This document shows, piece after piece, positions 24 to 62,650 of a DNA stretch of 64,000 nt. The stretch lies in NCBI RefSeq assembly GCF_964355755.1, contig NC_092673.1:20651001-20715000 (forward strand). The letters run 5' to 3'. Below the pieces are notes generated by a model. It worked only from the letters and a program-made list of their open reading frames with translations. It did not search any database and was not told where the DNA came from. The translations under genes and the position numbers were made by a program. This DNA comes from Antedon mediterranea (taxonomy: Eukaryota; Echinodermata; Crinoidea; Comatulida; Antedonidae). Position 1 is the first letter of the stretch. The number at the start of each line of letters is the position of its first letter.

Positions 24-10351
<10,328 letters not shown>

Positions 10352-12666: not shown

Positions 12667-12682
12667 CAAAAATGGCGGATAT
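12667..12682 (+). promoter_or_regulatory. TISU/YY1-like start context of XPO7
   Basis: The start codon lies in AAAAATGGCGGAT, close to the SAASATGGCGGC element that combines a YY1 site near the transcription start with efficient initiation on very short 5' UTRs. If used, the XPO7 5' UTR would be very short. Only the sequence match supports this. Confidence 0.4.
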
Positions 12683-15600
12683 CGAGCAGGTAAAATATTA
12701 ATTAATTTTAAGTTTTTAGTAGTAATTTATTGATAAATTGTATAAATACATAGATAGTGGTGTTCTTTACTGTGCATTATCTGAAATGAATAAAATTGTA
12801 ATGATATTGTAAAGTATTTAGTGAAATATTCTTACTTTAATATTCGTTGTTTTGAAGCAGTGAGTGACTGTGTTGAATAAGAAAGTTAGCCGTTCGTAGC
12901 CGTACTGATATTTTCATGCATTAAACGATTGGAGTAGAAACGGTGGGCCTAGCCTACTTCTATATTAAGTTTTCCCAGTGTTTAAAATGTGTGGGCAGGG
13001 CTACTATACTAATTTATTCTAGATAAGTTAAGCATGCGTTCTATAGAAGAACGATACGTCTAATATGAATACATTACTAGCTGTGTCATGTAATTGCTAA
13101 CTACTACTAGGGGGCCTAGGCCTATTACTAATTATAATAATAATATTATTATTATATTAATAAATAATAAAAAATATAATAAATATATTTCTTCTTCTAG
13201 ACTAGCTAGCTAGGCCTAGGCTAGAGTGTATATATAGTTTAGTATAGACCTGAGATTAAGGTCTACACAGTAGTGTGTGCTATTATGTACCTGTACTGCA
13301 TATAAATTCATTAAAACAATTCTATAATCTATTTAATTGAATAGGGCCTAGCCTAGAGGTCTTCTATGCTTAATCAATGTATTTATATTATAATGTATGA
13401 TGTACAGGACTGCGTTTGTACAGCATATGAATTATAGATATAATTTTAAAACTTGATTCTTGTTCTCAAATATATTTTAGAATCATGGATTGCATATTTT
13501 GTACTGATTTACATTTTAAATAAAATATTTCATTGGGGTCATTTTCATAATGAATTCATGCCAAATACTCCATTTTTGGCTGGGAGACTTGTTTGTGTAT
13601 ATATTAGATTTGCCTCCCAGCCAACATTGTACTCCAGTTTTCCACATTTTCTCGCAGTTTTCCGCATTTTCTCCAGGATTACAAAGATAACTGAATTTCA
13701 ATGTAGGTCTATATGTGTTGTTTTTTTCATTAAAAATATAAAAAAAAACTCACACATTAAAATTTTTTTTAATGGAAAGGAGATTCTCTTTACATATCCA
13801 CCACGTGACTTGATACCGCTTGTCAGCACTCCTTGACTCTCCTCTGGTCTACATAATAGTAAAGGCCGCTGTTGACCTTAAAAAAACCACTTTTTTTTTT
13901 TTGTATGTTGGCATGTGAATTGATGCATGGTCAGTAAGATCATTGACGAGAACAAAAATTGTTGTCACCTGTTAGTGAATTGTACATTGTACGACAATGT
14001 CATTTAGGTTGCATTCATCTGAATGATGGATGAAACTAAAGCCATCCACCTTTGATTGTTCCTATCATTGATCAAAGGCTTCTCTTGACCAGAAGAAAGG
14101 CATCGGCCAATATGTCTGCGGTAATGCCAAGAGTCAGCAGTGATGATTTCACATGCCTAATGGGACCCCAGCTCCATATACAGCACCCGATATTCCCAGA
14201 TGGTCTTCCACCAAGCTCTAACCGGGCCCAAGCCATTTAGCTGTATTATATCATTAATTCCAGCTTAATTTAACCTGTACCTCTAACAAGGACATCTATT
14301 GATAACCTCTCGATAACCTCTCTTTACCTTTACCAGTTTTCTATGCAATCAGAACCTTCTTAAATTTGTTTACATTTTATTTTTGTAGGAACTAGGCCAA
14401 TTGGAGGCCTTATGCAAACAGCTGTATGAGACGTCTGATGGAATTCAACGAGCAGAGGCTGAGAAAGCCTTAGTCAATTTTGTAAACTCAGCTGATTGCC
14501 TTACGAAATGTCAGCTGTTATTGGAAAGAGGCAGTGTATGTTTACAATTCATATTCTGTTTACATGTAACTTACAACTCAAAATAACAGGATGTTCAGTA
14601 ATGAATCATCAAATTCATCACACATTCAATGTTAAACCGCGATGAAGTAAACACATTCATTTTAAACTAGAAAGCCACTCCGAGAGTGCATACCTCCGCC
14701 TACTGTAAAATTCTCCTACATAAGATTTTCTCCGGTAAAAAAAAAAATATATATATTTGTGTGTGTGATTTAGGCTAATTTCACTACAAGCATGTGTATG
14801 CGAGTTTGATGTAATGGTTATGTAACAAGCCTTTCAATTAACAATAGCTTCAGTTGACTAACAATAGAACAGCAACGCGAAAATCAAACGAGTGAATTTG
14901 AAAAGAAATAGGTTTTTTAAAATACTCGCATCAAAAAACTTGCACATTGAATCAAATTATGTTTTAAAATTACAAATTATAACTCTTGCCACTTTTACAA
15001 AAGTGAAGTTTTTTGGACAAGTAGTTCTCGAGAAAATGCAATTTCAGTTTACTTGTTACTTTAAGACTGCTCGCTGGCTTTTGAAAAATTCTGTCCTATC
15101 TTTTAACACTAGCAGGTCTGAAAAGTATACTAAAAAGTGGTCCAGAATTGAGACAAGGGTCCCAAATGGTCCCAAAATTTAATGGAATGGTCCTTGACCA
15201 CATATTTATCTGAATATTCTTTTTGGCAAAGATCTTACTTTTTGAGTAATCATGCTAACAAACAAACACACGCTACCGATTACATATACCTCCTTGGCGG
15301 AGGTAAACTAAGTACAGTCGACTCTCCCAATACCGGTCATTCTTGGGCTGGCCTAATATTTTTAGATGTCTGAAATTAGTGGAGCATTAATTATTTAAAT
15401 TTTTGGTAAATGAAGTTGTGGTGGAGTTGGTTAGGGTGACCAACCTTTATTGTTTTATCAAATTTTTATCTTTATACAAAGCATTTCACCAGATTATTTT
15501 ATTACAACGCCTACCCATCAGTAATGATTCTCTTTCTTAGTACTCCGTGGGGGATTTTTAAAATCCCTATTATATAATATTATTAGTCATCAATAAATAT

Positions 15601-18600: not shown

Positions 18601-21600
18601 TTTTTTAGGCTTTGAAAGAGCGTTTCAACTTCAGTGATGAGAATAAGGTCAGTGCTATTTAAAATCCTTTTTAAAAAACCTCTTGGAAACGGTCATTCTG
18701 GCCAAACCATCCAGCCATCTTGTCATAAAATTGTATACTATATGTAGTGTACTGAACTACTACTACTAAATTTGTAAAAACTCATTTACAAAATGTGTTT
18801 TATTTATTTACAGCATGCAGTAATGGATCAATTACTCAGACTGGCGCATAATTGTCTTACGTTTGATTTTATTGGAACATCAACGGACGAATCATCTGAT
18901 GATATGTCTACAGTGCAGATTCCAACGGGATGGAGGTCAGGTAAGGTCATTGATGTGTAGGTCTATTTATAATTGTTAATCAGGTTAACAGAAGTTTTTT
19001 TTTTGTCTTTAGTGAAGTTAACAGAAGTTGATCTGCTATGACAAGCTAAGTAGTTACTACTGGAACAACGTTAATTTATTTTCATTGGGATTCCCCATGT
19101 CGTTAATCATTTTCGTGGGGATTCCCATGTCAATAATCATTTTCATGGGAATTCCTCTTTGTCCATAATCATTTTCATGGGAATTCCCCTGTGTCAATCA
19201 TTTTCATGGGGATTCCCCCATGTCATTAATCATTTTCATGGGGATTCCACTTCATTCCGACATCATTAATTTGTTTATCATTTTATTTCCAGCTTTTTTG
19301 GATGTTAGTACTGTTCTATTATTCTTTGACCTGTACAAAGCACTGCCTTCAACTCTATCACCAATGGTGAGTAAAGAAGCACATTGATTTATTGTGCTCA
19401 ATATATAGTATGAATATGATTTAATGATCCTCTATTTTTGATACCCCCTTTTATAGAAAATAGAAATACCACGGTCTGTTAAAGGAGTTGTAGCTTGGTG
19501 CTTACGATGCTCGGCTACCAATCCCTGAGTTCTTGGTTCAAGTCCTGTCAGATATCCGACAACTTCACATTCAAAGACTTATTAATGTAGAGCATCTTGT
19601 GTGTGTTGACCTGTGCATATACTGTAGATGGTCGCCTATATATTGGGACAGAGAAAATATTTGTTATTGATTGTCCTTTCATTGGCAATGTGCCTAAATG
19701 CAAGGATCTTAATCATCTGTTAAAATTGTTATACCTCTCTCTGTATAAATTTAGGCAAATTGCCCAGGAAAACCATAAGTGAATATAATTATCCACTATC
19801 CTTCCTAAAGGTGGCAAATCCCCTTCACAAGATAAACATATACACAAGATGCTCTACATAAAGTCTTTGGGAGTTATAAATTGTCATTACAGGACTTGAA
19901 CCCAGGACCCTTGGATTGGTAGCCAAGCATCATAACCACCAAGCCACAACTCCACTTATAACTTACACTCATTTCAGTAAACCGCATACCAAACTGAGCA
20001 CTGGCTTGAATATTTTAAAGGTTTTCAAATCAGTACTTATTGACACTATTGTTGACATTCTTGTGTTCTAAACTTTGTAATATTGTTTATTTCAGGCAAT
20101 ATCTTGTCTTGTTCAAATAGCATCAGTTCGTCGTTCATTATTTAACAATGCTGAAAGAGCAAATTTCTTAAAACACCTCGTCTCTGGAGTTAAGTTCATC
20201 TTGGAAAATCCTTCAGTAAGTTATTATTTTTTTTTAAATGCTTGGTCAATGAATTCTACTACAAATAATAATTTGTAATAATGCAATATTGCGTGTAATG
20301 TATGTGGCGAGGCATTTGAAGACAAAAATTAAGGCCACAGGCGTTTATTTGAGGGGGTGGGGGAGCATTTATTCCAAACGATGTTCTATGTGGAGCGTTT
20401 ATTTGAAGGAAGGGGTGGAGGGGAATTTATTTGAATAAATACGGTAAATATTAAATACAACAGTAATTACTACAATTAATGTTTTTTCTAATCTTTTTTC
20501 ATCATTCTTAATTAATTGATTTGTTCATTTTATAATATCTATCTTTATTTCAGGGTCTTACTGAAGCAACAAATTATCATGAGTTTTGTAGATTATTAGC
20601 ACGGTTAAAATCAAATTATCAACTTGGTGAACTTGTTAAAGTTGATATTTATCCTGACTTTATTCGACTTGTTGCCAAGTTCACTATAGAAAGTTTACAG
20701 GTAAATATAATATAAATATAAATAAATATATATATAAATATATATAAATATATATATAAATATAAATAAATATATATATAAATATATATATAAATATATA
20801 TAAATATATATCCTGTCCACCCAGGCAGCACTTGCCAGCTTTATACTACTGTATGACGTTATCCAAATTCCTTCACTTGCACTGACGAAGGGCTAGTATT
20901 GCCCGAAAGCTCTGCTAACTTTTCTGGCTGTTTACTTTATCGTTTTGATTTAGCTTTTCGCTTTTTATTTTTGTATCTCCATTGAGATCCAGCCACTGAT
21001 ACCCACAGCATTGTCATTTTTTTCAGTAATTTGCCTTTGGATTTATAAATAAATATATATAAATATAAATATAATTCGTTTATTATCTTCTTCTATTCTA
21101 TACACTACAGGACATAATCCCAAAGCTCTCCATTTACTCCTCTTTTTTGCTATTCTTTTTCTTAATCCATTTCTCCATCTCATTTTGAGTTTGTCTTTTT
21201 TCCCTTTTCGCTTTCATTGGTTGCCAAAGAGTCCTGTTTGTTCAACTATTATCGCACCTCGTTTTGTGTAATTTTATTTTTGTTTATAAGAAGGGCCTGA
21301 TCATTCTATTTAGTACCGGTTGACCTGTTGAATGTCACTAATGTGATTTAGGCTCCGTTTCTTCTCAGTTATTAACCATGTGAATAAATTAACCCTAATA
21401 TCTTGGCAGCAGAAACACAACAAATTTTCATTAACCGGTTATTAAATGGCAGCCTGAAAATAAGGGTTAAAAAACACCCAATCGATTCGGTGTCAGAACA
21501 CGATTTAACTGGGTTTTACTGTGCAACTTTTAGCTGCAACACAAAATAATGATTATTTGATTGACAGCTGCTGACCTTGAGTAAAGCAGTAACGTTTGAA

Positions 21601-27600: not shown

Positions 27601-30600
27601 TCTAGGCTGAATCGTTCTTAGTTCTGTTGGTGTAACAAGTCTTCTCGGACTATAAACCGTAGGTCCAGTGTACACAGTTATAACCTGTGTGCACTGTAAA
27701 AGAACTCAGTTAATTATTCGATACGAGTAGAGGGGTTACCCCGGTCAACCACCTATCTAATAGGACAGTTATTAATTTACTATTGATAATCTTTGGCTAA
27801 ATTAATAAAAATCTTTATGGTAAGCATATTTTGTTTATGTTTGTCTTGTGAACAAGATTGCTACCGTTTAAGGCTGCTACATACTAAATGTGTAAATGAG
27901 CCTTTAAGAAAGATTCTAAATGTATTTACCTAAATTACAAGAGCAGAAAAAAAGAAATGTTCAACATGCCCAGACATGTAGTATTATGTAAAACGTTAAT
28001 CTTTCAGAGTGACCAATTCCCTTTTCTTGGTGTAAATGGAACACTGTCGTTAAATGACATGAGATGTCGTACCACTTTTTATACTGCCCTCGGTAGACTG
28101 CTCATGGTAGATCTCGGCGAGGATGAACAGAGGTTTGAGAACTTTATGATGCCGCTGACACAGGCATTGGATTTTGTTGGAACTCAGTTATCAAATGCAG
28201 AGAAGGGTGTTGTTGGATTTAATGAAACACAAGCTAAGGTATCCTCTAACACTTCTTAAGCTTTGTTATGATTTTATTATTATTTAACCTGGCAGCACTT
28301 CCCTTCACATGCTGAGATTAAAGTTTTACACTATAATAAAGTTGCTATTCTTCAACCATTTGGCATATTCTAATATCATTTGTGAATGTGGGTCAATACT
28401 GCTACAACAAATTGTAATCACTAATAATCAGCCTAGCCAAATCATGGTTAAGTTTTTATTATTTACAAGAACCTTACAATTCACAGCATCTGATTGGCTA
28501 ATCCCACGTCTATAGTTATTGCCATGCCCTCGAACTATAGACCTGCTAAGCGGCGAATGTATGTAATGTTTCTAACCCATTGTTTACTTTTTCTCTCAAC
28601 AGAGAACACTAATAGGTGTTGCACGTGATTTACGAGGAATTGCGTTTGCGTTCAACACAATTACGAGTTATATGATGCTGTTTGATTGGATGTATCCTTT
28701 TGAAAATTATTTTCAGCAATATTGCTAAATCAAACTGATTTTTGAGTAGAGAAACATAGTTTTTGTATTGTATTTTTTTCTTCACAATTTTAGAAATCTG
28801 CAGCAATAAGGTTCTTTTGTATAGCTTTTTCCTATGCTATACTGGCAAAATTATTCCCTGATATTGCATAAGTGATAAGGTGGCCATCTAACCATCTGAT
28901 TTCTTCCTGCTTGTATCCTTAGGCAATATACTTTACTTTAATACGATTGCCTCTCTTCACTCAGCGGTACAAATGGGTACCTGCTAAACTTTGCGCTGAT
29001 TACAGTACTAGCTGCCTTATGGGAGTATGTTTCCATACATGTTTGATCCAAAAATGACCGGTATAATAACATGTACATCGCTTAAAAGTTTCACAACATT
29101 AGGATCTTTTAAATCCAGAATATCATTATTATTTTTCACCAGACAATCTCTATCAATTTACTCAATATTTTATCAAATTAATAGTCTGATTTAGTTTCTT
29201 AACGTAATTAATCAGATATCCAACATATACCCCAATCCTGTTGAGAGCTGTACAGCTGTGGTGCCACGATCCAGCAGTAACAACTCCTATCTTGAAATTA
29301 ATGGCAGAGCTTGTGCAAAATCGCTCACAGCGTTTACAATTCAATGTATCTTCACCAAATGGTATTTTACTGTTTAGGGAGACTAGCAAGATGGTCTGTA
29401 GTTATGGTCAGTACTGTATCATTAAAATAGTAATCATAAATATTAACTCTCTGATTTCTTCCCTTTCTGCCTACTCTTCAAATTAATTGTTATTTTATTT
29501 AAAATTAATTAAAGATGAAAACATGAAAATGAAGATTAATAAAATCAGACTTTAAATAGGCCATTTTGCAGTTTTAATAAAGTTATTCACTTCTGTAAAA
29601 AAACAAACCAAAATAATTATTATTATAGAAAGAAAAACAAAATGGAATCAATTTTTTATTCGATCCAGTTTTTGGTAAAGTGAATAACCATTACATGACA
29701 TTAAAATGGCATATTTTAAAAAAAATTGAATAAAAAGGGGGACAATGTCTTTAATGGTTGACAATATTTAAATTTTTTAACATACAACTAATTATTCACC
29801 GATTCCAACATTTTTAGACATAAAACTGTGAAATTTCATTCAGTTTTATCCGGTTTAAAAGTCTATGACGTCACGCCTGATACTTGTCTGCAGCGGGTGA
29901 TGAATTCAGCCGAGTATAAGAGGAATACGAGTCCTGGGCCGTTGAAATGAATTAAATGAACCAATGTTACATGCATACATAAACAATTTACATAAACGAT
30001 TTATATTGTGCCTCATCAAAAAATAGATATGGAACTGAATGGGATGAGTTTATTGTATTTAAATATTAATTTAATTTTCAAGGGAAAAATAAATTAAAAC
30101 ATTTTTTTTTGTTTTTTGTATAGGATCTTCAGTTTTGCAGCTTGGTGACATTCCTAAAGATCAAATTTACAGAATGAAATATCCTTTATCTTAATCTCTG
30201 TCTACATTATCAAACTTTATGTGATGTGCCCATATATGGACATGATAACGTCATATTACTACCATATTTGGGAATATCACTACCATGTTTAGGCACATCA
30301 CGCTTTTTTTGTCAAACTAGTTTGATAGTGTAAATAAAGCTTTTATTATGCTTTGAAAACCACATTTGGAAGACCAGACTTTCCAAAAAACCAGACATAT
30401 TATATTAGGCAGGCGTCCAAGCGTGTCTGGTATTGGGAGAGTTTACTGTAATATATTTGGACATTTAATTTTCTTCGCAAATTTCAAATAACCAGCTTGC
30501 ATACAATGCGAATGGGACCTATGCTGATTTATGTCAAAACAGTTCTACTGGCTAAAGGGTCATTCACACCTCAACCAACATCTCAAATCGAATGTCAATT

Positions 30601-33600
30601 TGTTGTTTTCATGCGGCTATGCGCATATCAATTGGCGCTTAGCCGCGTGGAGTGTCGTGAAAACCCAGCACCAGACTGAAACCATGCCAGAACAGGTGTG
30701 AGTTAGTTTAGAAGGTCTAGTTCACACAAGTTTGTTAATATAATAAAATCATTGTTAATAACTTTCCTTAATGTAATGCATTCACATTAAAAGGCATATC
30801 CATATGCTTCTCAATGTTAAAGGCAGCTTTGTGTGGTAGCTACGTCAACTTTGGTGTTTTTAGATTATATAACGACACAGCTCTTGATGATGCTCTTGCA
30901 GTCTTTGTTAAACTATTGATGTCATTGTTACAGAGTGATTTACTTGTAAGTACTTTTTTTTGACAAAAATGGCTTCACCCCATGGTCCCTGTACCATGTG
31001 ACACTATGCTCTATATCTGGCATGTAAGACTATTTGTAAATTACAATCTGTCCTACAGTAAACTGTAGAGAACCCTGGTATTATTGTAGCAAGGCAATCT
31101 TAACAATAGGATGCTGAGCTCCAGAAATTATCAAATGTGGCTGCCACACGATCAGTTCCATGCCCCTTAAAGACACCACCACATGTACTTGGTACAGTAC
31201 TGTTGGTATTTGTCGCAGCCAGACATAATATCAAATGACTGTTGGTGTTCCTATCTTGGCAAGGCGAGTTCAGTGTCCTGTTGTAGATTGCTTTGATTGT
31301 AGTTATGCTTGCGTTTACACCAGGTATTCCTGTTTGTTTATTATGTGTTTTCACATTGCTCTCTCGACATGACATTTGTATAAATTTTTTAGAAATTTGG
31401 TTTGAGTATGGATTGTAGATATTCCCCTACTGTATGTAGTATTCCCAATACAAATATGTTACTTTTACTTTATTATTTTGTAACTATGAACATGCGTATC
31501 TAAAATAAAAGTAAAATGTAATGTAAACGTTTTATTTATAATTTACAGGATTACCCAAAGCTTAGTCAGTCATACTACACGTTACTAGAATGTTTATCAC
31601 AAGATCACATGGACTTTATCAGTAGCCTTGAACCACCAGTCTTCCTCTCAATCTTGGGTTCAATATCTGAGGGTCTTACTGCCCTAGGTAAGATCAGTCG
31701 CAACTACCTCGGTAAAGTATTGAATCATTTCACATTCTGATTGCCAGCCTGGAGTGATTGTTGCTTTATCCTTCAGCTTCCTGGTATCTCTTAACATGTT
31801 ATGTTAAAAACTTTTTTATTTTTAACAGATAATGTTTTTGCTTGGAAATTTAATTTACTAACATTGACTTTCCACTATTGAGAGAAATAGCCATAGTTCA
31901 GATAACTAGCCTATTATTTTTTCTCTTTCGTGGGTTTAGCCCACTTTTGTTCATTATTCCATTCCATGAAAAAGATATACAAAGATTTATGTAATAATAA
32001 TATGGTTAAAAGAGATATTGTATCTTTTCATTAACATAACATAATTGGTTATATTGGCACATACCCTCTTATAAAATTTGGCCAACGTATTGAAGCATTG
32101 TTTTTTTTTATTTCTATATTTCTTTCTTTTTCATCTTTCTGTTTTATAGGTAAAACAAGTAGTTTTATGTGTCAACATATCACTGTACAAACCAGATAAA
32201 TAATTATTGATTAATTAACATACTTCCTTTTAAAAAATCAATTCAGCATGTGCATTTGGATATTATCAGCTAACCACAATTTATGTTATGATTTTAATGT
32301 TAAATTTATTTACAACCTTTTGATATATCATACCTAACCAATGATGTACTTAAAACTAAATAAGATTAGTATTTTGGGATTTGATTTGGTTTACAAATTT
32401 TAATTAATATAACTTGCTTGCAGACTTTTCCTAACATACAATGCGATGCTATGTCTGATAAATCTTGTAAAACAAAACAACTGGAATGTACAATATATTA
32501 GCTAAGAGTCTGCATACTTTATTATGAAGGTAGTGATGTAATAAGTGGTAAAACGAATTCAAAATGATGTTCTGAAGGCTTAATAGTATATAGCAGATCC
32601 AGTGCCGTTTAAGGCCTATTTACACAGACAAATTAAGCGGTAACGATAAGTTGTTACAGTAAGCGAGAAACTGCGTAGCTTTTCCCATTTACACAGCGCA
32701 TGGAATTTGAGAGCAGTGTGGTGGAAAATAGATGCTTGTAGGTCTTGACGCTTATGCATGTTGCAGGCACTGCTGGACTTGACATATACTGACTGTCCTG
32801 TCCCAGGCCTGGTCTTATTTTTAGAGGGCTAGCATTCATCAACACTTGTTGCCTAAACATCCCAAATCTATTTTTTTGTACACTATCCATATATAACAAT
32901 CAGTCGCGTCATATATTTTTGTAAGAATTTCTGAAACTAGGCTATGGTAGGCCTACTATGGCACTTTTATTATCGACATCTTGGACTCGACGGACACATG
33001 CTGAAAATTTGTTGGTAGATGATGTCATATCAATCATGTTGATTGGCCAGAATCCATGATTACTGCGCGGTATTTGGAAAAAATAGAGTCTGTTTCAATC
33101 CTGAGCGGATTTCTGCTTAACCGCCCATCCACTCCGCATTCTGTGTTAATAGAAATAGAATAGATTCTAGTTTTCTTGTAGTCTTACATTACCGCTTACT
33201 GTTACTGTGTAAATTGGCCTTTAGTTTGGTTCTGCCTGGTGCAATGTAAACAATGTGTCATGGATTTAATTGTGCTGGATGAAGGAGGTGGGCAGGCAGG
33301 CAGGCAGGCATACACACCAGTCCCCAACTCCCACCCCACCCCAAAATGTATTTTCAGAACAGTATTCAGATTCAGGTTAACAATGGGCGATAATTGAATT
33401 GATTTTCTAGATACAATGGTATGTACAGGTTGCTGTGCCACTCTAGACCACATTGTGACTTACCTATTTAAGAAACTGTCCAAGTCTAGCAAGAAGCGAC
33501 CTGGCACTCAACTTGAGAACACATCGTTCCTTAGAATATTAGAATTACATCCACAAATATTTCAACAGGTAAGTATCGCTGTAATTAATTGTGTTGTAAT

Positions 33601-40263: not shown

Positions 40264-43200
40264 TCATGAGAAGTCTCCTGCTTCAAATTTGTCTTTTTCA
40301 AAAATTTCTGCTCGTACCATGCGTCCACCAAACCATCTCCCATTCAGGTTGTCCACGGCTGAGGTGGCTTCTGCAAATCAAAACAATCATAAGGCAAATG
40401 TATTAAAATTATTATTTGCAAATTCAGAAATGTTTTTACACCACACCGAATAATCGGAAGATACCATTAGTACTTGATAAAGTTAATATAATAATAATAT
40501 CCTGGATTTATATAGCGCCTAATGTTGTAAAACCGCTAAGCGCTGAACTGAGTTGTGCAGACAAGTCAACTTGAACTTGCTAGATGCAACTACATCAGGG
40601 CCAGCTTCATTCGTCTATGAGTTCCGACCTAGTTTATTACCGATTACTTTGTGTAATTTATTGCAATGTCTGTTATGTCACACACACACAAAAAAACTAT
40701 TGTGTACAACATCATTTTATGTCAATGTTGATATAGAGTTAGTTAAAGTTTCATTCAATATGTTTTGATTGTCATCAGGAATGAAAATATTGATCGAAGC
40801 GTCGAGAAATGCAACAAATCTTTTTAGAACTAATATATATGGTGTACCGCAAACTTTATTTCAACATTTACCAGATGTCTCGATGTAGACAGTTACTTGT
40901 ACCAGTACCAGATCACTTATGTTTGAAATCATTTTATTTACTTACCCTCTGGTTCACTGAACTTGACAAATATTTTTACGATGACTTCAGCATCCTCTTC
41001 TTCACCTTGGCGCTCCTGGTAGATGATCACACGATTGACAACACCGAATCGACCACATTCTTCCGTCACCTCACCTTCCAAGTCATCATCAAGTTCAGAA
41101 ATATCAACCATGTTTCTCAATACCACAACATTTGACTGAAAATACAGAAGCAGTTTATTATACAATCTTCTATTTAAATAACATGTATTTAAAAAAATCT
41201 ATATACACAATATTTATGTTATCAACCGAAGCTTTCAAAATATAATAATAGATGGAGGTTAAGCTTGGTTACCATTTCCACATAACACGCGTAGGTACAG
41301 CGGAAGTGAGTTGTCCAAGCACCAGTTCAGATTATCATCACGTCATAATTTGTCAAATTACCTGCGGCACAATTACGTCCTTGTGTTGTGTCCAAGTGGG
41401 AATCAAGCCATTTTGTTTCTTTATACAGACTGTCTCGTTCTGTAAACTTGATGATTAAAACTTACCTCAGACTTGCGTAATAATCTCTGCATCACCATAT
41501 GCCTTTGGTTCGTTCCAGATATTGACATATTCTCTTGCTCACTCAAGGTTTGTGGCATTTCTTTTTCAAGCTTTTTCTTGATTTCTTCTGCTGTGGATCC
41601 AGGAGCTGGAGCTGGTGGCGACATACTGGTGTTAATGGTCGAAGACATTGGCATGATAATTGCGGTTGGTACGGTGGTTGTCACAACTGGTGGAACGCCT
41701 TAAGAATATAATAATGCATTTAATATATATTATTTATTTCATATTGATAAACAATAGGTAGCTTTCGATGCAATGATTTCATTGTCAGCATCAAGGACAT
41801 TGGGATACACTTTTTTACTTGATTTACAATTTGGCTTCTGATATCGTGCAAACATCTGAAAATGGAAACAACAGCTTCTACTGTACACATACCAAGATAC
41901 AAACAGCACACTCACAGCACTTTGGGAGTGTAATTTGTAGCACACCTCTAATGATTTGTCACCCAAACAACATTTAACAGTGAGAATTATATGCATTATC
42001 AGCAGGGCCGTAGCCAGTATGCGGCAGAGCTCGTCTCGTCTGATTTTCACCACCCACCCCAACCCCCCAGCACATATGGGTCGCGTCATCACGAAAGGAG
42101 CCTTGTGTCGCAAAAGCTATATTGCTATAATTAGCTTTGAAAGTTGGAATAGTCAATTTTGACTGAAAATAATTTTTTTTTTTTTTTACATATTCGACAT
42201 ATTTAACTATTATAGTTTACTTTTCCTTAATTATTAAAACTTAATTTTGTTCCAAAATACATAAATTTTGACGTTTTTATAGACAATGTTGTAAGGTTTT
42301 GTGTGGAATTCTGACGATTTCAGTCGTAAACGGCCAAAAATCTACCCTATTTTTCAATCGAATGTTCTCGCCTTTCCAACATTGGAAACCCGTCACAACT
42401 GGTATGGTTTTAAAGCTTGAAACGTCATCTTTCAGAATATCATGAATAAACATTTGTATTTGCAATCATAGTCCAATCACAATCACTTTTATAAAGGCTT
42501 CGGCCTTAGATACAGCCAAACAAAAGGGACTAATCGCGTCCTCTGATTGGTCAATCACATGTGAGCATGCGTAGACGTATTGTTTACTTCCTTGGTAAGC
42601 TGTTCGCACGAGGTTTACAGTGTGCTAGATTATTGTTCTACTTTCGTGTTATAATTTACAATCTTTTAATAAACTATACTATAATTCTTTTGCATCATTC
42701 GAATTAGTAGTTTGATATAATTAATAGAAATGTCTAATTCTGATAATGAACGATCGGAAAAAGTCATAGCTGACGCTTTAAATGCTGGCCTTCTTGCTAA
42801 TGCTGACGATGCGGCCCGGCCCCTGTTAAGCGACTAGAGGCCTACATACATTCAGGATTTTTTTACTCGGTGAGGGGCTGAAGAAAATGGGGTAAGTGAA
42901 GATGAGGATGAGGATACTAAAGACTGGATGGGGATAGACGAAGATTCTGACGGCGAGGATAGTTATTGAAAACGAATAAGAATGTGTAAGAATTTGTATA
43001 GGCCTAATCATGATCTAGAGTAGAAGTGAGTTATGTTAACAGATTGTGTGCTCAAAATAATCCATTAATCAACATAATTATGCATTTTTAATTGTTGATT
43101 TTATATATGAAGATGATAATAAAATTGAAAGAAATTAAAGTGTAATCTTTATTCGTATTCATTCTTTAAGTGTGTAAAATTTCATGTAGATCCATTAATA

Positions 43201-46200
43201 ATAACTAATGGTATCCAAGGAGAAGTGTTGTGGATATTGAATAGAACCAATGTAATGGTCCACTGAACTTCAAAGGCTGTTTTCTAATTGTTGATAATCT
43301 ATTGAATTCGGAAGTGCTTTGTTGAAATCGGGTCATATCTTAATTGCCTTGAAAGAAATATAAAGCAAGTTACATATTTTTGGAAAGCTTAAAGAATGGA
43401 GATTAATATTATAATAAAAATTAAAAAAATTTAATTTCAACACAAGGCTCCTTTTGTGGTGACACGACCCATATTGTCATATTTTACATTAATAATTAAA
43501 ATTGTATTTAAAGCATCTTTGCCTAGTGTGTTTTTAACCTCTCGCTATGGCCTTGATCAGTACAGTCAACTCTTCCAATACCAGACTTTTCTTGCAGTCC
43601 AAAAAGTTCTAAATTCATGTTTACCATTAAAAATACATTTCAAATACCAGACGGTATTGGGAGAGTTTGACTGTATGAAAATTAGCAAACCTGTAATGAT
43701 GGCAGTTGGTAGAGATGGTGCAAGAATTGGTTGCGGTAAATTGGTAGGTGCTATCATGTTAGCTAATGTTGGTGGTGGTGGTACTGCCATTCCTACTGTT
43801 GACGGCCCAGACCCTGGTAACGACAGGCCTGTGACAGCATCTAATGCCTATAAATAAGTTTTTACTAATTAGTAAGAGATTTGCAGGTCTCAAATTAAAA
43901 AAATATATATTATATATACACTACACTTTCCATCTTTTTAATTTTTCTGGTTCTGGGCTCTTTTGACATGTTGTTGCACTTGTCAATTGTATGAACCACT
44001 GTACGACCCCCAGGAGGGGTGCGTCATTTAAAAATAATTATTGACGCAGAGATGCATACAAAAATGGTACGTCACATCAATGAGCAATGGTGTGTCACTT
44101 TACCAACCAATTGTTCTTCAAAATGGGTGCAACATAGTCACCTAAAGGTAAGTCACTTTTTTGACACGGGTGTGTGTCATGGTATTCATAAGGTATGATT
44201 GGACAAATGAGGTATCTCTCCCTGGGGTTATATAGTGCGACATATAATAATTAACAAGTGCATAAATCAATCTATGATCTATCTCTGGATTGGATAAATA
44301 AAGATGTGATGATTTTAGGCCAAAACTGAGGATTATATTTACATTGATTTCTTTTTCTATGATATTTTGTATATTTATTTCACTAAATCAAAATAAACAC
44401 CTAGAGTGCAAACTATATTTAAGTGTAATAATTATTAGTTTTTTACCACTGTATATAACACAACAAATTGGTCTTTTTGATATACTGTACTACAGATTGT
44501 ATAGATCCTAGCCTGTATAGTTTGCATACCTGAATCTTAGCGGTTGCAGCAGCCGCAGCTACAGCAGCTGCTGGTGGAAGACCACCAGGCCCTGAGGGAA
44601 CAGCTGCAGCTGGAGTTGGTGGTGTTATTGCCTGTAAGAAATGAAGCGAAAAATATAATATTTAGACATGGGACACTAGTATACTGTAATTCATTTGTAA
44701 TTCAGGCAGCACTAGCTTCTCAATCTTGTCCAAGTACTCGCTTACACTCAAGAAGGGCTAGTATTGCCCGAAAGCTCAGCAATTTTTTCTGGCTGTTTTA
44801 CTTTTTAGTTACTTTTTTGCTTATTTTATTTATATCTCCTTTGAGCTGTAGGTTTTTGGACAAATAACATTTTAAAAACATAAAATAAGAACAGAAATAA
44901 AAACAGCATGTGGCTGAATTAACTACTTACCCGTCCAACTCTTAAGTATTGACCACCAAGATCAAATAGATTCATAGAGTTAATAGCATCACCAGCAGAC
45001 TGCACTTTATCATACTCAATAAAACCATACCCTCTGTAAAAACAAAAGTATTATTTATCAAAGGAGTATGAACACACAGACAAAATGTCAGCTAAAAGAT
45101 TTTGAGGCACCACCACTAAAATTTCTCAATGCACTCGTGTGATCTACAAGAATATTAAAGTCGATTAAAATTAGTTTGTGTATATGACCAACCAACAAAC
45201 TTTATAGATAATATTCTTTCTAACACATGCTAACCAGCGTTCCACGACCTAAAACACAGTTTTCGGGAAGAAGTCACGGCTGTGCCATAGTTTTAGTGAC
45301 CCATGTAATGAAACAAATTGAAGCTAGTCTTCCATCTGCAGATTAAAAGAATCAGTTGAGAAAGGGTGGGTAATCTAACAAGAAAGAATTATTGAAACTT
45401 ACTTGTGTTTTCCAGGAGTAGCTGGGTCACAAGGCAAAGCACACGCCTTGATTTTACCAAATGCTTCAAACACACTACAAGAACAAGAAAATATAACAAT
45501 TAACTATTTATAGCAGTATTGCTTATTACAACTTTTTAGGGGAAAAATAAATTTTTATAATTTTATCTTAAAAAACTAATTTCTAACCTTTTTATATCTT
45601 CTGATGAAAGGTCTTGATGTATGGAAGCTATGAATATTCTTGGAAACTGTTTTGCTTCTTCATTTATTTGGTCTACTACTGGCTGGGCTTGTGGCATATT
45701 ACTTGGACGTCCAACCTATCAAGTAAACAATAATAAATTAACTGAACACTCTGGAAAAAATTGCCAGACAGAGAAATTTAATCTATCTTTTTCCCCATCA
45801 TAAACATACATTTAAATTACGATGGAGACACACAGCAAAGTTTGTTAGGTAGCAGAAGGTTCTAGGTCAAATTTGTTTCCAAATGCCTTACATGTCATCA
45901 TCTCCACCTAGAATCCACTGTAACTTTGCTCACAATGAATTGACATGACTAGGTTGACTGTCATCGCAAACCTAAATATATCTAGTAAGGGTTTGAGGCT
46001 CACTCACTCCATGGTTCTGGTGGTAGAAAGAGTCTTCTCGGATAAGGACTATAAACCGTAGGTCCAGTGTACACATTTAGCTTATGTGCACTTTAAAGAA
46101 ACTAGTACATCTTTCAAAACGAGTAGGGCTTTACTAGTACAAACACAGCCACTGTCACTCACAGTCACTTATCATAACTGAGCCGTCTGGGAGACCAGTC

Positions 46201-49200
46201 TTTTATTGCAGAGGTCACCCAGTATACATAAAATAAATAAATACTGTACCTTAATATTTCGACCTCCAATAACAACACCGTTCATTTGGTCGAGTGCTAG
46301 CTGAGCGGCTTCTGGCAATTCATACTCGACAAATGCGAAACCTTTGTGTTTCATCGTCACCGAATCCCAGGACATATTGATACTTTTGATTGGTCCAAAT
46401 GGATAAAACGCTTGGCGGATGGTGTCTTCACGGAGCTCAAAGCTAATAGATCCGACGTAAACACGACACATCAAGGCCAAAGCACGCTGTCGCTGGGCTG
46501 CCACTTGCAGGTTACACATTTGCTGTAAAAAATTATAAATATAATTATTTTGGTGGAAATAACATAAGTAATATGCAAAACACTGATTTACAATACATCA
46601 TTAAACAAAAACAAAGCAAGTTGCTATAAATTGTGTGTAATAAAATTGTGTAAAACTAACTTGTTGTTGATGGGCGATAGTCTGCTTGACAAGTACACTC
46701 TTAATACTCTGTTCCATGGCAAATTTCTTGGCTCTGGTCAAAGCGTCCTGCTGATCATTGGTCAGTTTAGGGAGGCCTTGCGATTCCTTCTTAGCTCCTG
46801 GGCCAGCAAGAACAGGTCCAGTTTGAGGAAGAATTGGCATCGGAGAAGGACTCCTTGCACGGACATCTAAACAAAGTCAAAACTTGTAAATTAATACCTT
46901 CATTGGTAGTTATATTAAAACGTTTAGCTGCTAACAATATTTGTTATACTGTATCTTAACCTTCAATCTAACTCTTATCAGACAATATTCGTCAGAAAGT
47001 TTTATTATGTAAAGGCTTTTTAAACAAATTAATTCATGCATAAAAAATGAAATATTTGTATGCTTCTGTAAGTAGTCGCAAACACCAACAACAAAATCTA
47101 AAAACTCCCATAACTTGTGCTTCACAACCGAAAGACAGTTTTTACAAATAGGTCTTTACCACAGACATCAATTTGGACCGTCGGGGCCTAACTATCAGCT
47201 GGCCACGGTCACGAGGAGCGCCTTGTTGATGGTTGCTCACTTTCCAGTAATTCGTTACTAGTTATACTGATCATGTCTCAGCCAGCAAACTGCAAAATTT
47301 TTAAACACACACAAAAAAAGAAAAACTTATGAAGAAACAAGCTATTCAGAAATGTAAAAATATATATCATGGAAACAACATAACTGGAATAAAAAAAATT
47401 TACAATTCCAAAATGGATTTTCTTTCACGAAGATGGAATAGTGTAATTTCTTTAGATTTAATAATAATCTTATTATTTGAACAGGCCACTATCAAAAACA
47501 ATTGAAAAAATATATATTGCAAAACCGGACTAGATAACCAATGGTCATAACAATAATGGAAAACTTAAAAAGGAACAAAAAAAAAAAAAAACATTTGTAT
47601 CATTGCCGAAAAATTTCATTTAAAAACAAAAAATGGGGAACAGTAACAATTATTGTTCTTTATCATTGAGGACCTAACAAATATTTCTTATCTTAAATCA
47701 GATGTTTCATGAGATTGTTTCAAAATTGTCGGCATATTAAACTAGTTTAATAATTTGCTCATCTTAAATCAACCAATTAGTATGGTAGGAATTGCAATAT
47801 CTATTACTTAAATATAGGTGGGATTTCACACTCAATTGTACATTAAAGTGTTGATGCGATTTAGGTGCTGCATTGTAAATACCCTCAAGTACGCCGTATT
47901 ATTCAAGTATTATTCGTATAGTAATGCATGTCTGATTGACGTATTCACACATGAATATACATTGCAAGTGTTTGGATTTAGCAAGACACACTTGATTTTA
48001 AACAATGTTGTAAGCATTTGTTACCGAGTCATATTTAGTTAACAGACTTGTGAAAATTGTCTAAATTTTCCATTTTATTAGGTTATGAAATAATTTGAAA
48101 ACGAGTTGAATCACAATGAAGCGTCAATAAAAGTTGAGTTGTAGAACCAGCATCAGAAATTAGCTCCAGTCACCTGTACTACGAAGGGAAGCTGCATATT
48201 GAAAAAAAAAGACACAAAAAAAGAAGGCATGTTATATTTCAATGAAGTTGAAGTCATAAGACCGATAGACACTTTGGAATTTCACAATGAACAACAATTT
48301 ATAATATTTAGATCCACGGGCCTTATGACTAATAACTAATTAGAAATGTTAAATTGAGCAGTTACTAAAAATAAGACTCAAACATACATGTAATGTGTTG
48401 TAATAATTTGTACAGTATGTTGTATGATAAATGACTAATTTCTAATGACATATAGAATCTAAGGTTCTGTCTACACAATCAAACTTTATGTGACAACAAA
48501 AATGTGATGTGCCCATACATGGACAGATGTGGTCCTTCGTCAGTATTCATCCAGATCCAGATCACTACCATATTTAAGCATATCACTACCATATTTAAGA
48601 ATATCACTACCATATTTTAGCACATCACTACTATATTGGGCATATCACACTTTTGTGTCAATCTAGTTTGATAGTGTAGACAGAGCTTGAATCAGTTCAT
48701 AATTTTGTTGAAAACTGCATATTAATCTACTGTAGACAATTGTTATCTTTAAACTATAAAAGGCTGGAAACTCAAATCTACTGTACACACATTTGGGTTA
48801 ACAACCCACCTAGCCTAGCAATTTGAATGGGCAAATTTAACTTCTTTCTTTCTTCTTTTTTTTATTATTAGGGATAAATGGTTCCCCCTGGGCCACATTA
48901 ACAAACACACTAGTTAAAACCTATAGTCGCTGAGTTGGCTTCATCATCTCGGTAGCCAAAGAGGTGTCAGTAGGCTCTTCAAGCTATTAACAGTACATGT
49001 ACTCTGAAAGAAACTCCAAAAACAGAGAAAAAAGAAAAAGAAAAATTATTATTGGAATAAGAATAAAAAAGTTCCTGTGGAAAAAAAATAGTGTTTTTTT
49101 TTCTCAGAAATTCACCTTAATAAACATTTTTTAGAATTAATGTTGTTTTCAATTCAAGTAAAAATAAATCCTTTTTAATCCTTGCAAATAGTACAATACT

Positions 49201-50329
49201 AAAAGTAGTTTAGCCTGCTTATTTGCATGCGCAAACAAAATGTATTTCTCCCTGTTTCTTTTACACCACCATTGGCTTTCCTTACAACTTTAGGTATTTT
49301 CATACAATTTGCAAGGATTTGAAAGTGTTTAAACTTAATAGAAAAAAAAAACATACCACTCACAGGCTCCATTTGCATCATCATACTAAAGTCTGGTTCA
49401 CCAGCAGGACCAACCATTGATGAAAGTTCTGGATTGCCATTTGAGATCAGTTCACTGGCAATGACTGGCATTAGTGGTGCTGTGCTTAAGGGTACACTTG
49501 GTGCAAGCATTGTCTGTTGCTCCATATCTGCAGCCATATCTGCAGCCATATCCACTGACGTCAGCATAGACTATTAAAGATATTATATAAATAAAATTAT
49601 ACAGTAATAATAATATGGAATGGGTACTGTATATATTTACCGTATATAAGAGCAGAATGTTGGTATGACAAATTATTTAAATTACCATGAATGATTATGA
49701 TACAATACAAAAGATGGCTTAAAATGATACTAAAACTATCACATAATACCAGGCACAAAAAGTTAGTATACTGTCAAAAGTTGCATTTCGGGCAATTGGG
49801 CCGAAACCTCCTGGATTTTATAGTGCATCAAAGGTGGTCCGAATCTTCCCTGATTTGATAGGAAGCCCTGGCCTACTGGCTAGGTCTAGCGATCTAGGCC
49901 TATCTTGGGTTGGCCTACACTATTTATAATGGTCAGTTATCTAAATCCATCAACATCTGTATATTTATTCAAGGAAATAACTATTTTCTATATGAAATAC
50001 TTTGTAGACTCTCCTAATATATTGTTAAGGTGGGTATTTATTTATTATCCATAAACTTAACATACTAAAAAAATAGTTTCATATGAATCGCAACAACGTC
50101 GTACCACTAAAGCAAGCCTATCTATGCCTATTAACTCACTCAACACACAGAGACCCGGGCCTAACTAGTTTAGCCTCTAGGCCTAGCTGGACAAGGCTCG
50201 TATTTTTAAAAATTCATTTTATCACAACTAAAAGGGTTTAATGCGTATGTTTTAATTCTTAAATTTACTTACAGGGTTAATTTCATCCATAATATTGTTC
50301 TCGAAACAATCAAGGGCATCAGCCATCAT
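40264..50329 (-). CDS. PUF60: Poly(U)-binding splicing factor PUF60 (half pint homologue)
   Basis: Twelve exons in transcription order: 50329-50273, 49570-49357, 46866-46661, 46522-46250, 45715-45588, 45474-45403, 45033-44931, 44631-44530, 43847-43691, 41698-41466, 41135-40946, 40370-40264. They sum to 1842 nt, 613 aa. The protein binds pyrimidine tracts at 3' splice sites with U2AF and U2 snRNP. Landmarks: [25 protein letters not shown]1 ([20 protein letters not shown], then KGFAFVEYE); RRM2 ([26 protein letters not shown]); an Ala/Pro-rich linker; [11 protein letters not shown] and [10 protein letters not shown]; then a C-terminal U2AF-homology motif domain with VVVLRNMVD and the RWF loop in NGRWFGGR. 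Two adjacent ATGs open the frame; the outer is used. The N terminus (exons 1-2) diverges from vertebrates. A possible extra 18-nt exon lies at 48174-48191. Confidence 0.95.
40488..40560 (-). mobile_element. SINE tail fragment
   Basis: TAATAATATCCTGGATTTAT followed by ATAGCGCCTAATG; reverse complement of the SINE tail at 9634-9782. In the last PUF60 intron. Confidence 0.45.
42074..43474. mobile_element. 1.4-kb DNA transposon derivative with 35-bp inverted ends
   Basis: ATATGGGTCGCGTCATCACG ... CCTTGTGT at 42074-42108 is the inverse of 43440-43474 with three mismatches. Inside, an ATG at 42730 opens a 35-codon frame ([20 protein letters not shown]...) ended by TAG at 42835. Shortly after comes an acidic stretch ([20 protein letters not shown]) at about 42900-42966. 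These look like coding remnants of an internally deleted transposon. Superfamily not assigned. Confidence 0.75.
42730..42837 (+). pseudogene. Transposon ORF remnant
   Basis: A 35-codon frame with acidic N-terminal composition inside the inverted-repeat element. It lacks any catalytic domain and probably marks the 5' end of the parent transposase gene. Confidence 0.4.
44703..44860. mobile_element. Dispersed repeat, second AGGGCTAGTATTGCCCGAAAG copy
   Basis: Shares AGAAGGGCTAGTATTGCCCG and TTTCTGGCTGTTTTAC with 20816-21020. The upstream core reads CTCAAGA instead of CTGACGA. In a PUF60 intron. Confidence 0.5.
46021..46145 (+). repeat. Dispersed repeat (CTATAAACCGTAGGTCCAGT family)
   Basis: GGACTATAAACCGTAGGTCC, AGTGTACACATTTAGC, then GTGCACTTTAAAGAAACTAG; third copy of the family at 27631 and 34411. 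Confidence 0.6.
47150..47295 (-). ncRNA. Possible structured RNA in PUF60 intron 2
   Basis: A GC-richer island in AT-rich intron sequence. On the minus strand GACCGTGGCC, AGCTGATAGTTA, GGCC and ACGGTC can form a stem-loop. No convincing snoRNA boxes were found, so this is only a pointer; it could equally be a transposon remnant. Confidence 0.15.
48174..48191 (-). CDS. PUF60: Candidate 18-nt PUF60 microexon
   Basis: On the minus strand a long T-rich tract leads to TATGCAG, then an 18-nt exon, then the donor GTGACT. Placed between exons 2 and 3 (both phase 1) it keeps frame and inserts six residues, giving [18 protein letters not shown]. It would be a cassette exon of the serine/arginine-bearing linker before the first RRM. 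Prediction from splice signals only; no transcript evidence. Confidence 0.5.
48463..48689. mobile_element. TA-flanked MITE, copy 6 (expanded interior)
   Basis: AGGTTCTGTCTACACAATCA to TTTGATAGTGTAGACAGAGC. The interior holds four ACCATATTTAAGCATATCAC-like units and an unrelated insert (CCTTCGTCAGTATTCATCC). In PUF60 intron 2. Confidence 0.85.
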
Positions 50330-54459: not shown

Positions 54460-55098
54460 AAATGACATGTGATGCTTAATTAACCAATCGAACTGCAAGA
54501 ATACAATCGGGTGGGTTATAATTAGGGTTTTTTCATACCATACATTATACGATGGGATAGGATGTTAAAGAAAGAAAAGCCAAGTCTGTTAAAAAATAAA
54601 GATTTATCGCTACAATACAGTAATTTCTACTAGTTATTTACTTTTGTGTGATTCTAATTCAATTTGTCCCAAAGATTTTATATAGCAGCGTGTTAAGCGT
54701 ATAACGCGAACGCATTCTATATGATCCTCGTATACAAAAAATGCTAGATATAGCAAGAAATTATTAATTCCATTGCGATTAACAATATAATTAATTTTAT
54801 AGAAACTTCACTGTGCATACAAGAATATGTGTTGTAATTTATGTGGTCTTAATGTATTATATTAGATTATTATTTCTTATATTAAATAATGTTTTTGAAC
54901 ACATTTACGGCCGCCATCTTCGTTTATCTCACTGATTTGTCCACATTAGTGCTAAGGTACAATTTTAAACTGTATTTAACCATTAAAATAAAACAGCAGG
55001 TCTTAGTTTTAAAAGGGGTTATTAGCTATAGAAAGTAGACCCATTTTGTAATAGGCCATTTTAGGAGAGTTCATGAGGATCAAACATGTAATAGGTTG
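54460..55098. other. Intergenic, nothing recognised
   Basis: AT-rich sequence between the hAT-type element and the 25-bp satellite. I see no ORF, RNA gene or repeat with defined ends. Confidence 0.5.
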
Positions 55099-58000
55099 GA
55101 GAGATCACTTAAACCATAGGTAGGGGAGATCACTTAAACCATAGGTAGGGGAGATCACTTAAACCATAGGTAGGGGAGATCACTTAAACCATAGGTAGGG
55201 GAGATCACTTAAACCATAGGTAGGGGAGATCACTTAAACCATAGGTAGGGGAGATCACTTAAACCATAGGTAGGGGAGATCACTTAAACCATAGGTAGGG
55301 GAGATCACTTAAACCATAGGTAGGGGAGATCACTTAAACCATAGGTAGGGGAGATCACTTAAACCATAGGTTGGGGAGATCACTTAAACCATAGGTAGGG
55401 GAGATCACTTAAACCATAGGTAGGGGAGATCACTTAAACCATAGGTAGGGGAGATCACTTAAACCATAGGTAGGGGAGATCACTTAAACCATAGGTAGGG
55501 GAGATCACTTAAACCATAGGTAGGGGAGATCACTTAAACCATAGGTAGGGGAGATCACTTAAACTATAGGTAGGGGAGATCACTTAAACTATAGGTAGGG
55601 GAGATCACTTAAACCATAGGTAGGGGAGATCACTTAAACTATAGGTAGGGGTGGAGATCACTTAAACCATAGGTATGGGAGATCACATAAATTATAGATA
55701 GGGGTGGAGATTACTTAAACCATAGGTAGGGAGATCACATAAACCATAGGTAGCGGAGATCACTTAAACCATAGGTAGGGAGATCACTTAAACTATAGGT
55801 AGGGGTGGAGATCACTTAAACCATAGGTAGGGGAGATCACTTAAACCATAGGTAGGGGAGATCACTTAAACCATAGGTAGGGGAGATCACTTAAACCATA
55901 GGTAGGGGAGATCACTTAAACCATAGGTAGGGGAGATCACTTAAACCATAGGTAGGGGAGATCACTTAAACCATAGGTTGGGGAGATCACTTAAACCATA
56001 GGTAGGGGAGATCACTTAAACCATAGGTAGGGGAGATCACTTAAACCATAGGTAGGGGAGATCACTTAAACCATAGGTAGGGGAGATCACTTAAACCATA
56101 GGTTGGGGAGATCACTTAAACCATAGGTAGGGGAGATCACTTAAACCATAGGTAGGGGAGATCACTTAAACCATAGGTAGGGGAGATCACTTAAACCATA
56201 GATAGGGGAGATCACTTAAACCATAGATAGGGGAGATCACTTAAACCATAGGTAGGGGAGATCACTTAAACCATAGGTAGGGGAGATCACTTAAACCATA
56301 GGTAGGGGAGATCACTTAAACCATAGGTAGGGGAGATCACTTAAACTATAGGTAGGGGAGATCACTTAAACCATAGGTAGGGGAGATCACTTAAACTATA
56401 GGTAGGGGTGGAGATCACTTAAACCATAGGTATGGGAGATCACATAAATTATAGATAGGGGTGGAGATTACTTAAACCATAGGTAGGGAGATCACATAAA
56501 CCATAGGTAGCGGAGATCACTTAAACCATAGGTAGGGAGATCACTTAAACTATAGGTAGGGGTGGAGATCACTTAAACCATAGGTAGGGGAGATCACTTA
56601 AACCATAGGTAGGGGAGATCACTTAAACCATAGGTAGGGGAGATCACTTAAACCATAGGTAGGGGAGATCACTTAAACCATAGGTAGGGGAGATCACTTA
56701 AACCATAGGTAGGGAGATCACATAAACCATAGGTAGCGGAGATCACTTAAACCATAGGTAGGGAGATCACTTAAACTATAGGTAGGGGTGGAGATCACTT
56801 AAACCATAGGTAGGGGAGATCACTTAAACCATAGGTAGGGGAGATCACTTAAACCATAGGTAGGGGAGATCACTTAAACCATAGGTAGGGGAGATCACTT
56901 AAACCATAGGTAGGGGAGATCACTTAAACCATAGGTAGGGGAGATCACTTAAACCATAGGTAGGGGAGATCACTTAAACCATAGGTTGGGGAGATCACTT
57001 AAACCATAGGAAGGGGAGATCACTTAAACCATAGGTAGGGGAGATCACTTAAACCATAGGTAGGGGAGATCACTTAAACCATAGGTAGGGGAGATCACTT
57101 AAACCATAGGTTGGGGAGATCACTTAAACCATAGGTAGGGGAGATCACTTAAACCATAGGTAGGGGAGATCACTTAAACCATAGGTAGGGGAGATCACTT
57201 AAACCATAGATAGGGGAGATCACTTAAACCATAGATAGGGGAGATCACTTAAACCATAGGTAGGGGAGATCACTTAAACCATAGGTAGGGGAGATCACTT
57301 AAACCATAGGTAGGGGAGATCACTTAAACCATAGGTAGGGGAGATCACTTAAACTATAGGTAGGGGAGATCACTTAAACCATAGGTAGGGGAGATCACTT
57401 AAACTATAGGTAGGGGTGGAGATCACTTAAACCATAGGTATGGGAGATCACATAAATTATAGATAGGGGTGGAGATTACTTAAACCATAGGTAGGGAGAT
57501 CACATAAACCATAGGTAGCGGAGATCACTTAAACCATAGGTAGGGAGATCACTTAAACTATAGGTAGGGGTGGAGATCACTTAAACCATAGGTAGGGGAG
57601 ATCACTTAAACCATAGGTAGGGGAGATCACTTAAACCATAGGTAGGGGAGATCACTTAAACCATAGGTAGGGGAGATCACTTAAACCATAGGTAGGGGAG
57701 ATCACTTAAACCATAGGTAGGGGAGATCACTTAAACCATAGGTAGGGGAGATCACTTAAACCATAGGTTGGGGAGATCACTTAAACCATAGGTAGGGGAG
57801 ATCACTTAAACCATAGGTAGGGGAGATCACTTAAACCATAGGTAGGGGAGATCACTTAAACCATAGGTAGGGGAGATCACTTAAACCATAGGTAGGGGAG
57901 ATCACTTAAACCATAGGTAGGGGAGATCACTTAAACTATAGGTAGGGGAGATCACTTAAACCATAGGTAGGGGAGATCACTTAAACTATAGGTACGGGTG

Positions 58001-58150
58001 GAGATCACTTAAACCATAGGTATGGGAGATCACATAAATTATAGATAGGGGTGGAGATTACTTAAACCATAGGTAGGGAGATCACATAAACCATAGGTAG
58101 CGGAGATCACTTAAACCATAGGTAGCGGAGATCACTTAAACCATAGGGTA
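55099..58150. repeat. 25-bp satellite, about 120 copies, with higher-order blocks
   Basis: The unit AGATCACTTAAACCATAGGT plus AGGGG is repeated with few substitutions for about 3 kb, ending about 415 bp past the subtilase stop. A diverged block (AGGTATGGGAGATCACATAA, ATTATAGATAGGGGTGGAGA, GGTAGCGGAGATCAC) recurs with TATGGGAG at about 55674, 56431, 57439 and 58021, so the array grew by duplication of multi-unit blocks. Confidence 0.97.
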
Positions 58151-58462
58151 GGTAAAGCTTGGTTTTCACTTGGACAAAATGTAATACCGTAGGCACACAC
58201 TTAGCAGTTCTGATGATCCTTTGTGTTGTAATTAGTCAAATTACTGCGATTTGCCGTCCCTTGAGAACTGGGTAATTAATCATTCCTTAACAATTAATTA
58301 ACAGACTAAATTTGCAGGGTACACACCGGTCCTTCAGGACTGTGTAGTGACATTTCAGATAAAAACATGAACCCATCTTAAAATGTAACTTCTATTGCTC
58401 ACATGAATTGTTAAAATGAACAATGAAATGGACACAGTGTTTGCATCATTACATAATCATTC

Positions 58463-62583: not shown

Positions 62584-62650
62584 CTTGTTTCTTGTTATCG
62601 GTTGTAGTACAACGATTGAAGTGTGATCTCAACACTAGAACGCATCCCTT

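Follow-up and report, generated by a model that had tools for sequence, protein, structure and literature searches.

Intron 21 of the exportin-7 gene (XPO7) of the crinoid Antedon mediterranea belongs, with a probability that we put at about 95% on its sequence, to the AT-AC subtype of minor-spliceosome (U12-type) introns. The gene lies on the plus strand of a stretch of 64,000 nucleotides (NCBI RefSeq assembly GCF_964355755.1, contig NC_092673.1, positions 20,651,001 to 20,715,000 of the forward strand). This whole stretch is called the window below, and positions are counted from its first letter unless a genome location is given. An earlier note on this DNA had proposed an AT-AC minor-type intron in XPO7 at 30179–30785, and the sequence supports it. 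The termini are AT and AC, and scoring of donor and branch site against the U12 consensus sequences RTATCCTTT and TTCCTTRAY gave 9/9 for each. The intron start, the terminal CAC and the branch motif 13 nt ahead of the exon were also found as that note had written them.

Junction and motifs of XPO7 intron 21

The gene was located by tblastn of the window with a provisional human XPO7 sequence that served only as a probe. Collinear matches were obtained on the plus strand, and weak stray matches elsewhere were disregarded. The final model comprised 27 exons and 26 introns and encoded 1094 amino acids with a single terminal stop and no internal stop (Table 1). Its alignment with the provisional human sequence was full-length and collinear, with 72.3% identity over 1097 columns. 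A Pfam scan of a 1075-residue version of the protein, without the start exon and a microexon, matched PF25795 TPR_XPO7 (353.5 bits, cut-off 27, E 6e-106) and PF03810 IBN_N, the importin-beta N-terminal domain (46.8 bits, cut-off 21); these matches name the XPO7 family without the human probe. In a PDB search, the N-terminal 426 residues of the model matched exportin-4 and exportin-1 (26 sequences). By its predicted product, the gene at 12672–35916 is XPO7. Intron 21 is the only one of the 26 introns with AT-AC termini, and the other 25 are GT-AG, partly by construction because hand-setting of the splice sites favoured GT-AG where the peptide permitted.

Exon 21 ends with CAGAATGAA at 30178 and the intron starts with ATATCCTTTATC at 30179. 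At the other side, the intron ends with GCATTCAC at 30785, and exon 22 starts with ATTAAAAGGC (also given as ATTAAAAGG) at 30786. When 30178 is joined to 30786, the conserved XPO7 peptide is kept. Donors at 30126–30499 were combined with acceptors at 30560–30879, and the resulting 2473 stop-free pairs were scored against the corresponding stretch of the provisional human sequence. The best score, 274, was common to three register-equivalent pairs that give an identical mRNA, namely 30179–30785 (AT-AC), 30180–30786 (TA-CA) and 30181–30787 (AT-AT), of which the AT-AC pair alone has the end dinucleotides of a recognised intron class. The assertion in the earlier note that no other junction keeps the peptide is hence right in that this is the sole junction of a known class to do so, but it overlooks the two other registers, which yield the same mRNA. 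The next-ranked pairs listed, with scores of 267–271, had termini of no known class. Among pairs with GT-AG, GC-AG, AT-AC or AT-AG termini, the runners-up were an AT-AC junction at 30188/30785 (score 261, three residues added) and an AT-AG junction at 30181/30793 (score 247), both without a U12 donor. A 71-residue peptide spanning the intron 21 junction gave only four matches in PDB, at E 1.5–1.9, and none in Pfam.

The donor of intron 21, ATATCCTTT, fits exactly the published consensus for positions +1 to +8 of the U12-type 5' splice site, ATATCCTT (PMC2831892). The segment TTTCCTTAAT at 30763–30772, separated from exon 22 by 13 nt, fits the U12-type branch consensus, described as similar to TCCTTAAC and located near the 3' end (PMC2831892), except for a T in place of the final C. 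Of the 26 XPO7 introns, 19 and 21 match RTATCCTTT at the donor in 9/9 positions and intron 18 does so in 8/9; none of the other 23 exceeds 6/9. Single motifs of this kind are not rare in 64 kb. The donor sequence occurs twice on the plus strand and once on the minus strand of the window, with 0.7 occurrences expected per strand, the further copies being at 18507 (plus) and 37992 (minus), and TTTCCTTAAY occurs twice on the plus strand. What counts is that both motifs sit at the junction. Under a first-order Markov model, the probability of finding at one given junction both the donor 9-mer, in any of the three registers, and the branch 10-mer, anywhere within a 30-nt zone, was ~6e-9. The branch motif is weak when taken alone and is useful only with the donor, since the ordinary intron 4 also has a branch match of 8/9. 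For two 9/9 donors in an earlier model of 24 introns, the probability was ~2e-5, a value based on the window frequency of such RT sites in a count that includes introns 19 and 21 themselves.

In the minor spliceosome, U11 and U12 jointly recognise the donor and the branch site, and U6atac then takes the place of U11 at the donor. Of the four minor-spliceosome-specific small nuclear RNAs (snRNAs), two were tested, U12 and U6atac, and genes for both were found in the same genome. The U12 gene (G000:C8:25324701-25324851, 125.7 bits) is the one match to its family in the genome and contains the branch-reading segment GTAAGGAAAA; the U6atac gene lies at G000:C1:13134313-13134437 (136.6 bits). Neither family had a match in any of 14 control genomes. 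The AAAGGA segment of the genome's own U6atac can pair with donor positions +4 to +9 at 6/6 positions in introns 19 and 21, at 5/6 in intron 18, and at 0–3 of 6 in the other 23, a result that is not independent of the donor consensus match because the same bases are used. From these elements we infer how intron 21 would be spliced. U11, and subsequently U6atac, would read the donor, U12 would pair with TTTCCTTAAT and bulge the adjacent A for branching, and the exons would be joined at 30178/30786 in phase 2. A second U6atac match (L011, G000:C7:8523554-8523655) was weak, at 33.7 bits against a cut-off of 33, and is perhaps a decayed copy. An Rfam scan of the window gave nothing at gathering scores.

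Two other explanations of the AT-AC termini were weighed. The intron could carry these termini and still be removed by the major spliceosome, as a U2-type AT-AC intron. Major AT-AC introns do exist, with 85 reported when related subtypes are included (PMC8280824). However, the donor of intron 21 matches the major consensus MAG/GTRAGT at 3/9 positions and RTATCCTTT at 9/9, and a 9/9 U12 branch match at 9–20 nt from the intron end was found in just 0.07% of random intronic stretches, so that removal by the major spliceosome appears very improbable. Less probable still, and close to negligible in our view, is a GT-AG pair that escaped notice as the true junction, in which case the AT-AC reading would only reflect the demand that the peptide be kept. 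The top-scoring in-frame GT-AG pair, 30145/30793 with donor GTGACATTC, scores 199 against 274 and deletes 14 residues, and both U12 motifs would have to fall by chance at the peptide-keeping junction, with the probability of ~6e-9 given above.

Several observations do not help a minor-spliceosome assignment of intron 21 or weigh against it. By our count, 14 nt separate its putative branch A from the intron end, one beyond the optimum of 11–13 nt published for the short distance from branch to 3' splice site in U12-type introns (PMC3584512); the 13 nt between motif and exon are at that optimum. U12-type introns lack a distinct polypyrimidine tract, and upstream of the 3' end of intron 21 pyrimidines make up 10 of 17 positions, a count at the low end of the range of 9–15 among 24 introns but common to other introns. 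The above-cut-off Pfam matches, at residues 24–90 and 402–636 of 1075, miss the intron 21 junction, and the peptide comparison depends on the provisional human XPO7 sequence. The duplex energy with the genome's own U12 segment was −8.5 kcal/mol, only the third strongest of 24. As a class criterion, duplex energy was rejected, as it did not separate ordinary from U12-type introns: the ordinary introns 16 and 2 formed stronger duplexes than intron 21, and intron 19 reached merely −4.8 kcal/mol.

Neighbouring introns 19 and 18

Two further introns close to intron 21, both absent from the earlier note, have donors resembling the U12 consensus. Intron 19 is very probably a clear U12-type intron of the GT-AG subtype, to judge from its motifs. 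Its donor, GTATCCTTT, matches at 9/9 positions and its branch site, TTTCTTAAC, at 8/9, with the branch A located 13 nt upstream of the intron end. When 28691 is joined to 29216, the XPO7 peptide continues.

Intron 18 is ambiguous between the U12 and U2 types. Its donor, AAG/GTATCCTCT, matches the U12 consensus at 8/9 positions and the U2 consensus at 6/9. Within the zone where a U12 branch site is expected, no match exceeds 6/9, and the 3' end has a CTAAC motif and a pyrimidine tract of 14/17. One explanation is a hybrid or ambiguous intron midway in a conversion from the U12 to the U2 type, which keeps the donor of the former and already has the branch and 3' end of the latter; we regard it as plausible at somewhat less than even odds. 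There is precedent for such an intron in JNK genes, where a U12 5' splice site is combined with a U2 branch point sequence and 3' splice site, and where, as here, a U12-type intron follows downstream (PMC3584512). An ambiguous class, "U12/U2", is also used in U12DB (PMC2831892). Alternatively, intron 18 may be a plain U2-type intron whose donor is weak, or one of the U12 type whose branch is weak. Moreover, the JNK hybrid serves mutually exclusive sites, whereas full-length XPO7 needs exon 19 as well as exon 18, which has 231 nt and runs from phase 0 to phase 0; a site choice like that of JNK is unlikely to be productive, because splicing from the donor at 28239 to the acceptor at 29215 shifts the frame.

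Hence, by these sequence features, XPO7 has two, and perhaps three, U12-type introns inside 2.6 kb. A stronger version of this reading, in which the block holds three minor introns of both subtypes (GT-AG for 18 and 19, AT-AC for 21) within the 2.6 kb and intron 18 is hybrid-spliced, seems unlikely to us. If it were true, the block would be what is left of a 3' part of XPO7 that was formerly for the most part of the minor type, and would allow U12-to-U2 conversion and spliceosome cross-talk to be watched across exons of 89, 191 and 55 nt.

Gene model, intronic repeat and window surroundings

The coordinates of the features are collected in Table 1. The start exon is the weakest part of the gene model; it was one of two candidates from the scan and was picked by its likeness to the start of the provisional human sequence. 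The putative microexon, which tblastn had overlooked, sits between LLKQ and HAVMDQ and was picked from six candidates by likeness and by its splice sites, TTTTTTAG upstream and GTCAGT downstream. At the same position between LLKQ and HAVMDQ, the provisional human sequence has ASGKNLNLNDESQ.

Table 1 Features of the XPO7 gene in the window (positions within the window).
Feature	Position	Strand	Remarks
XPO7 (exportin-7), coding part	12672–35916	+	MADIEQ...NSDMMS stop; tblastn, hand-set splice sites, scan for start exon and microexon
XPO7 start exon	12672–12689	+	6 codons
Putative XPO7 microexon	18609–18647	+	39 nt, in frame
XPO7 intron 18	28239–28602	+	GT-AG; U12-like donor and U2-like 3' end
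XPO7 intron 19	28692–29215	+	predicted U12-type GT-AG; phase 2; ends CAG
XPO7 exon 21	30124–30178	+	ends ...DQIYRM plus AA of a split lysine codon (phase 2)
XPO7 intron 21	30179–30785	+	predicted U12-type AT-AC; 607 nt; phase 2; register set by AT-AC termini and donor consensus
Intron 21 predicted U12-type 5' splice site	30179–30187	+	ATATCCTTT; 9/9 to RTATCCTTT
Short dispersed repeat in intron 21	~30189–30343	+	resembles a miniature inverted-repeat transposable element; imperfect terminal inverted repeats; borders approximate
Intron 21 predicted U12-type branch site	30764–30772	+	TTCCTTAAT; TTCCTTRAY matched at 9/9; 30771 as the putative branch A
XPO7 exon 22	30786–30945	+	first letter, A, completes the split lysine codon

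The repeat in intron 21 begins right downstream of the donor. Its arms, at 30193–30216 and 30319–30342, are 79% complementary. A search of the genome (354 Mb, 18 contigs) gave at least 56 further matches at E ≤ 0.001, some of which are one copy matched on both strands. The donor motif does not come from the repeat, because the similarity with seven other copies (L002–L008) starts past the donor.

Elsewhere in the window, two tandem arrays were observed, one at 2990–5061 with a 98-bp unit repeated 21.2 times (98% matches) and one at 55091–58152 with a 25-bp unit repeated 121.4 times (93% matches). Three further regions hold open pieces with presumed resemblances to known proteins. The neighbour of XPO7 at ~41424–49570 on the minus strand presumably resembles a PUF60-type RNA-binding splicing factor, and the pieces at ~58569–62628, also on the minus strand, we take to resemble a subtilisin-like serine protease. 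On the plus strand, those at ~6071–10348 presumably resemble aspartate aminotransferase.

Minor introns in genes of nuclear transport

Intron 21 is ordinary in kind, a textbook mechanism in a known class. Like animal U12-type AT-AC introns generally, it has the donor ATATCCTTT, a branch site of the TTCCTTAAY type about 13 nt from the exon, and a CAC end. There is no essential difference from these introns, to which intron 21 adds the dispersed repeat after the donor. Nor is the subtype as scarce as the earlier note had it: the description of AT-AC introns as a small minority even of U12 introns was overstated, since their share of human minor introns is 24–26% (PMC8280824, PMC10639083). What makes it somewhat more interesting is that such introns are clustered here, a single gene having two of them or perhaps three. 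Clustering of U12 introns within genes was reported for all 21 genomes tested (PMC7367187). For human, one source counts ~50 genes with two U12 introns (PMC3584512), in disagreement with another that counts five genes with more than one (PMC4506483).

RANBP17 is the vertebrate paralogue of XPO7. A definitive U12-type intron is reported to follow its exon 20 (PMC4506483), and the two genes belong to the same family. In the XPO7 gene described here, the predicted U12-type introns come after exons 19 and 21, and possibly also after exon 18. An equation of the RANBP17 intron after exon 20 with the position of intron 21 was dropped when the microexon and the start exon moved the numbering to exons 19 and 21.

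IPO5 encodes a nuclear transport receptor of the superfamily that is shared with XPO7. Its intron 21 is a minor AT-AC intron (PMC8280824), which makes it, like XPO7 here, a gene for a nuclear transport receptor with an intron of this subtype; IPO5 belongs to a different gene family, and the matching intron number is probably a coincidence. No statement on XPO7 as a minor-intron gene was found in the main texts of the literature searched, and supplementary gene lists may include it; XPO7 is not mentioned in the text of PMC10639083 or PMC7367187, and the term "xpo" is absent from the main text of PMC8280824.

Loss of CENATAC in human cells affected 92% of A-type minor introns versus 24% of the G-type, and the genes with AT-AN minor introns retained upon this loss were enriched for nucleocytoplasmic transport (PMC8280824). 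By analogy with the human A-type introns, intron 21 may depend on a factor of the CENATAC type. The likeliest history would be an ancient XPO7 with several minor introns, of which intron 18 has since drifted toward the major type. For annotation, the AT-AC junction should be used, because gene predictors restricted to GT-AG would interrupt the conserved protein at the joint of exons 21 and 22. Holding a borderline minor intron beside two clear ones, XPO7 of A. mediterranea is a natural case for the study of intron-type conversion and of the dependence of nuclear transport genes on minor splicing.

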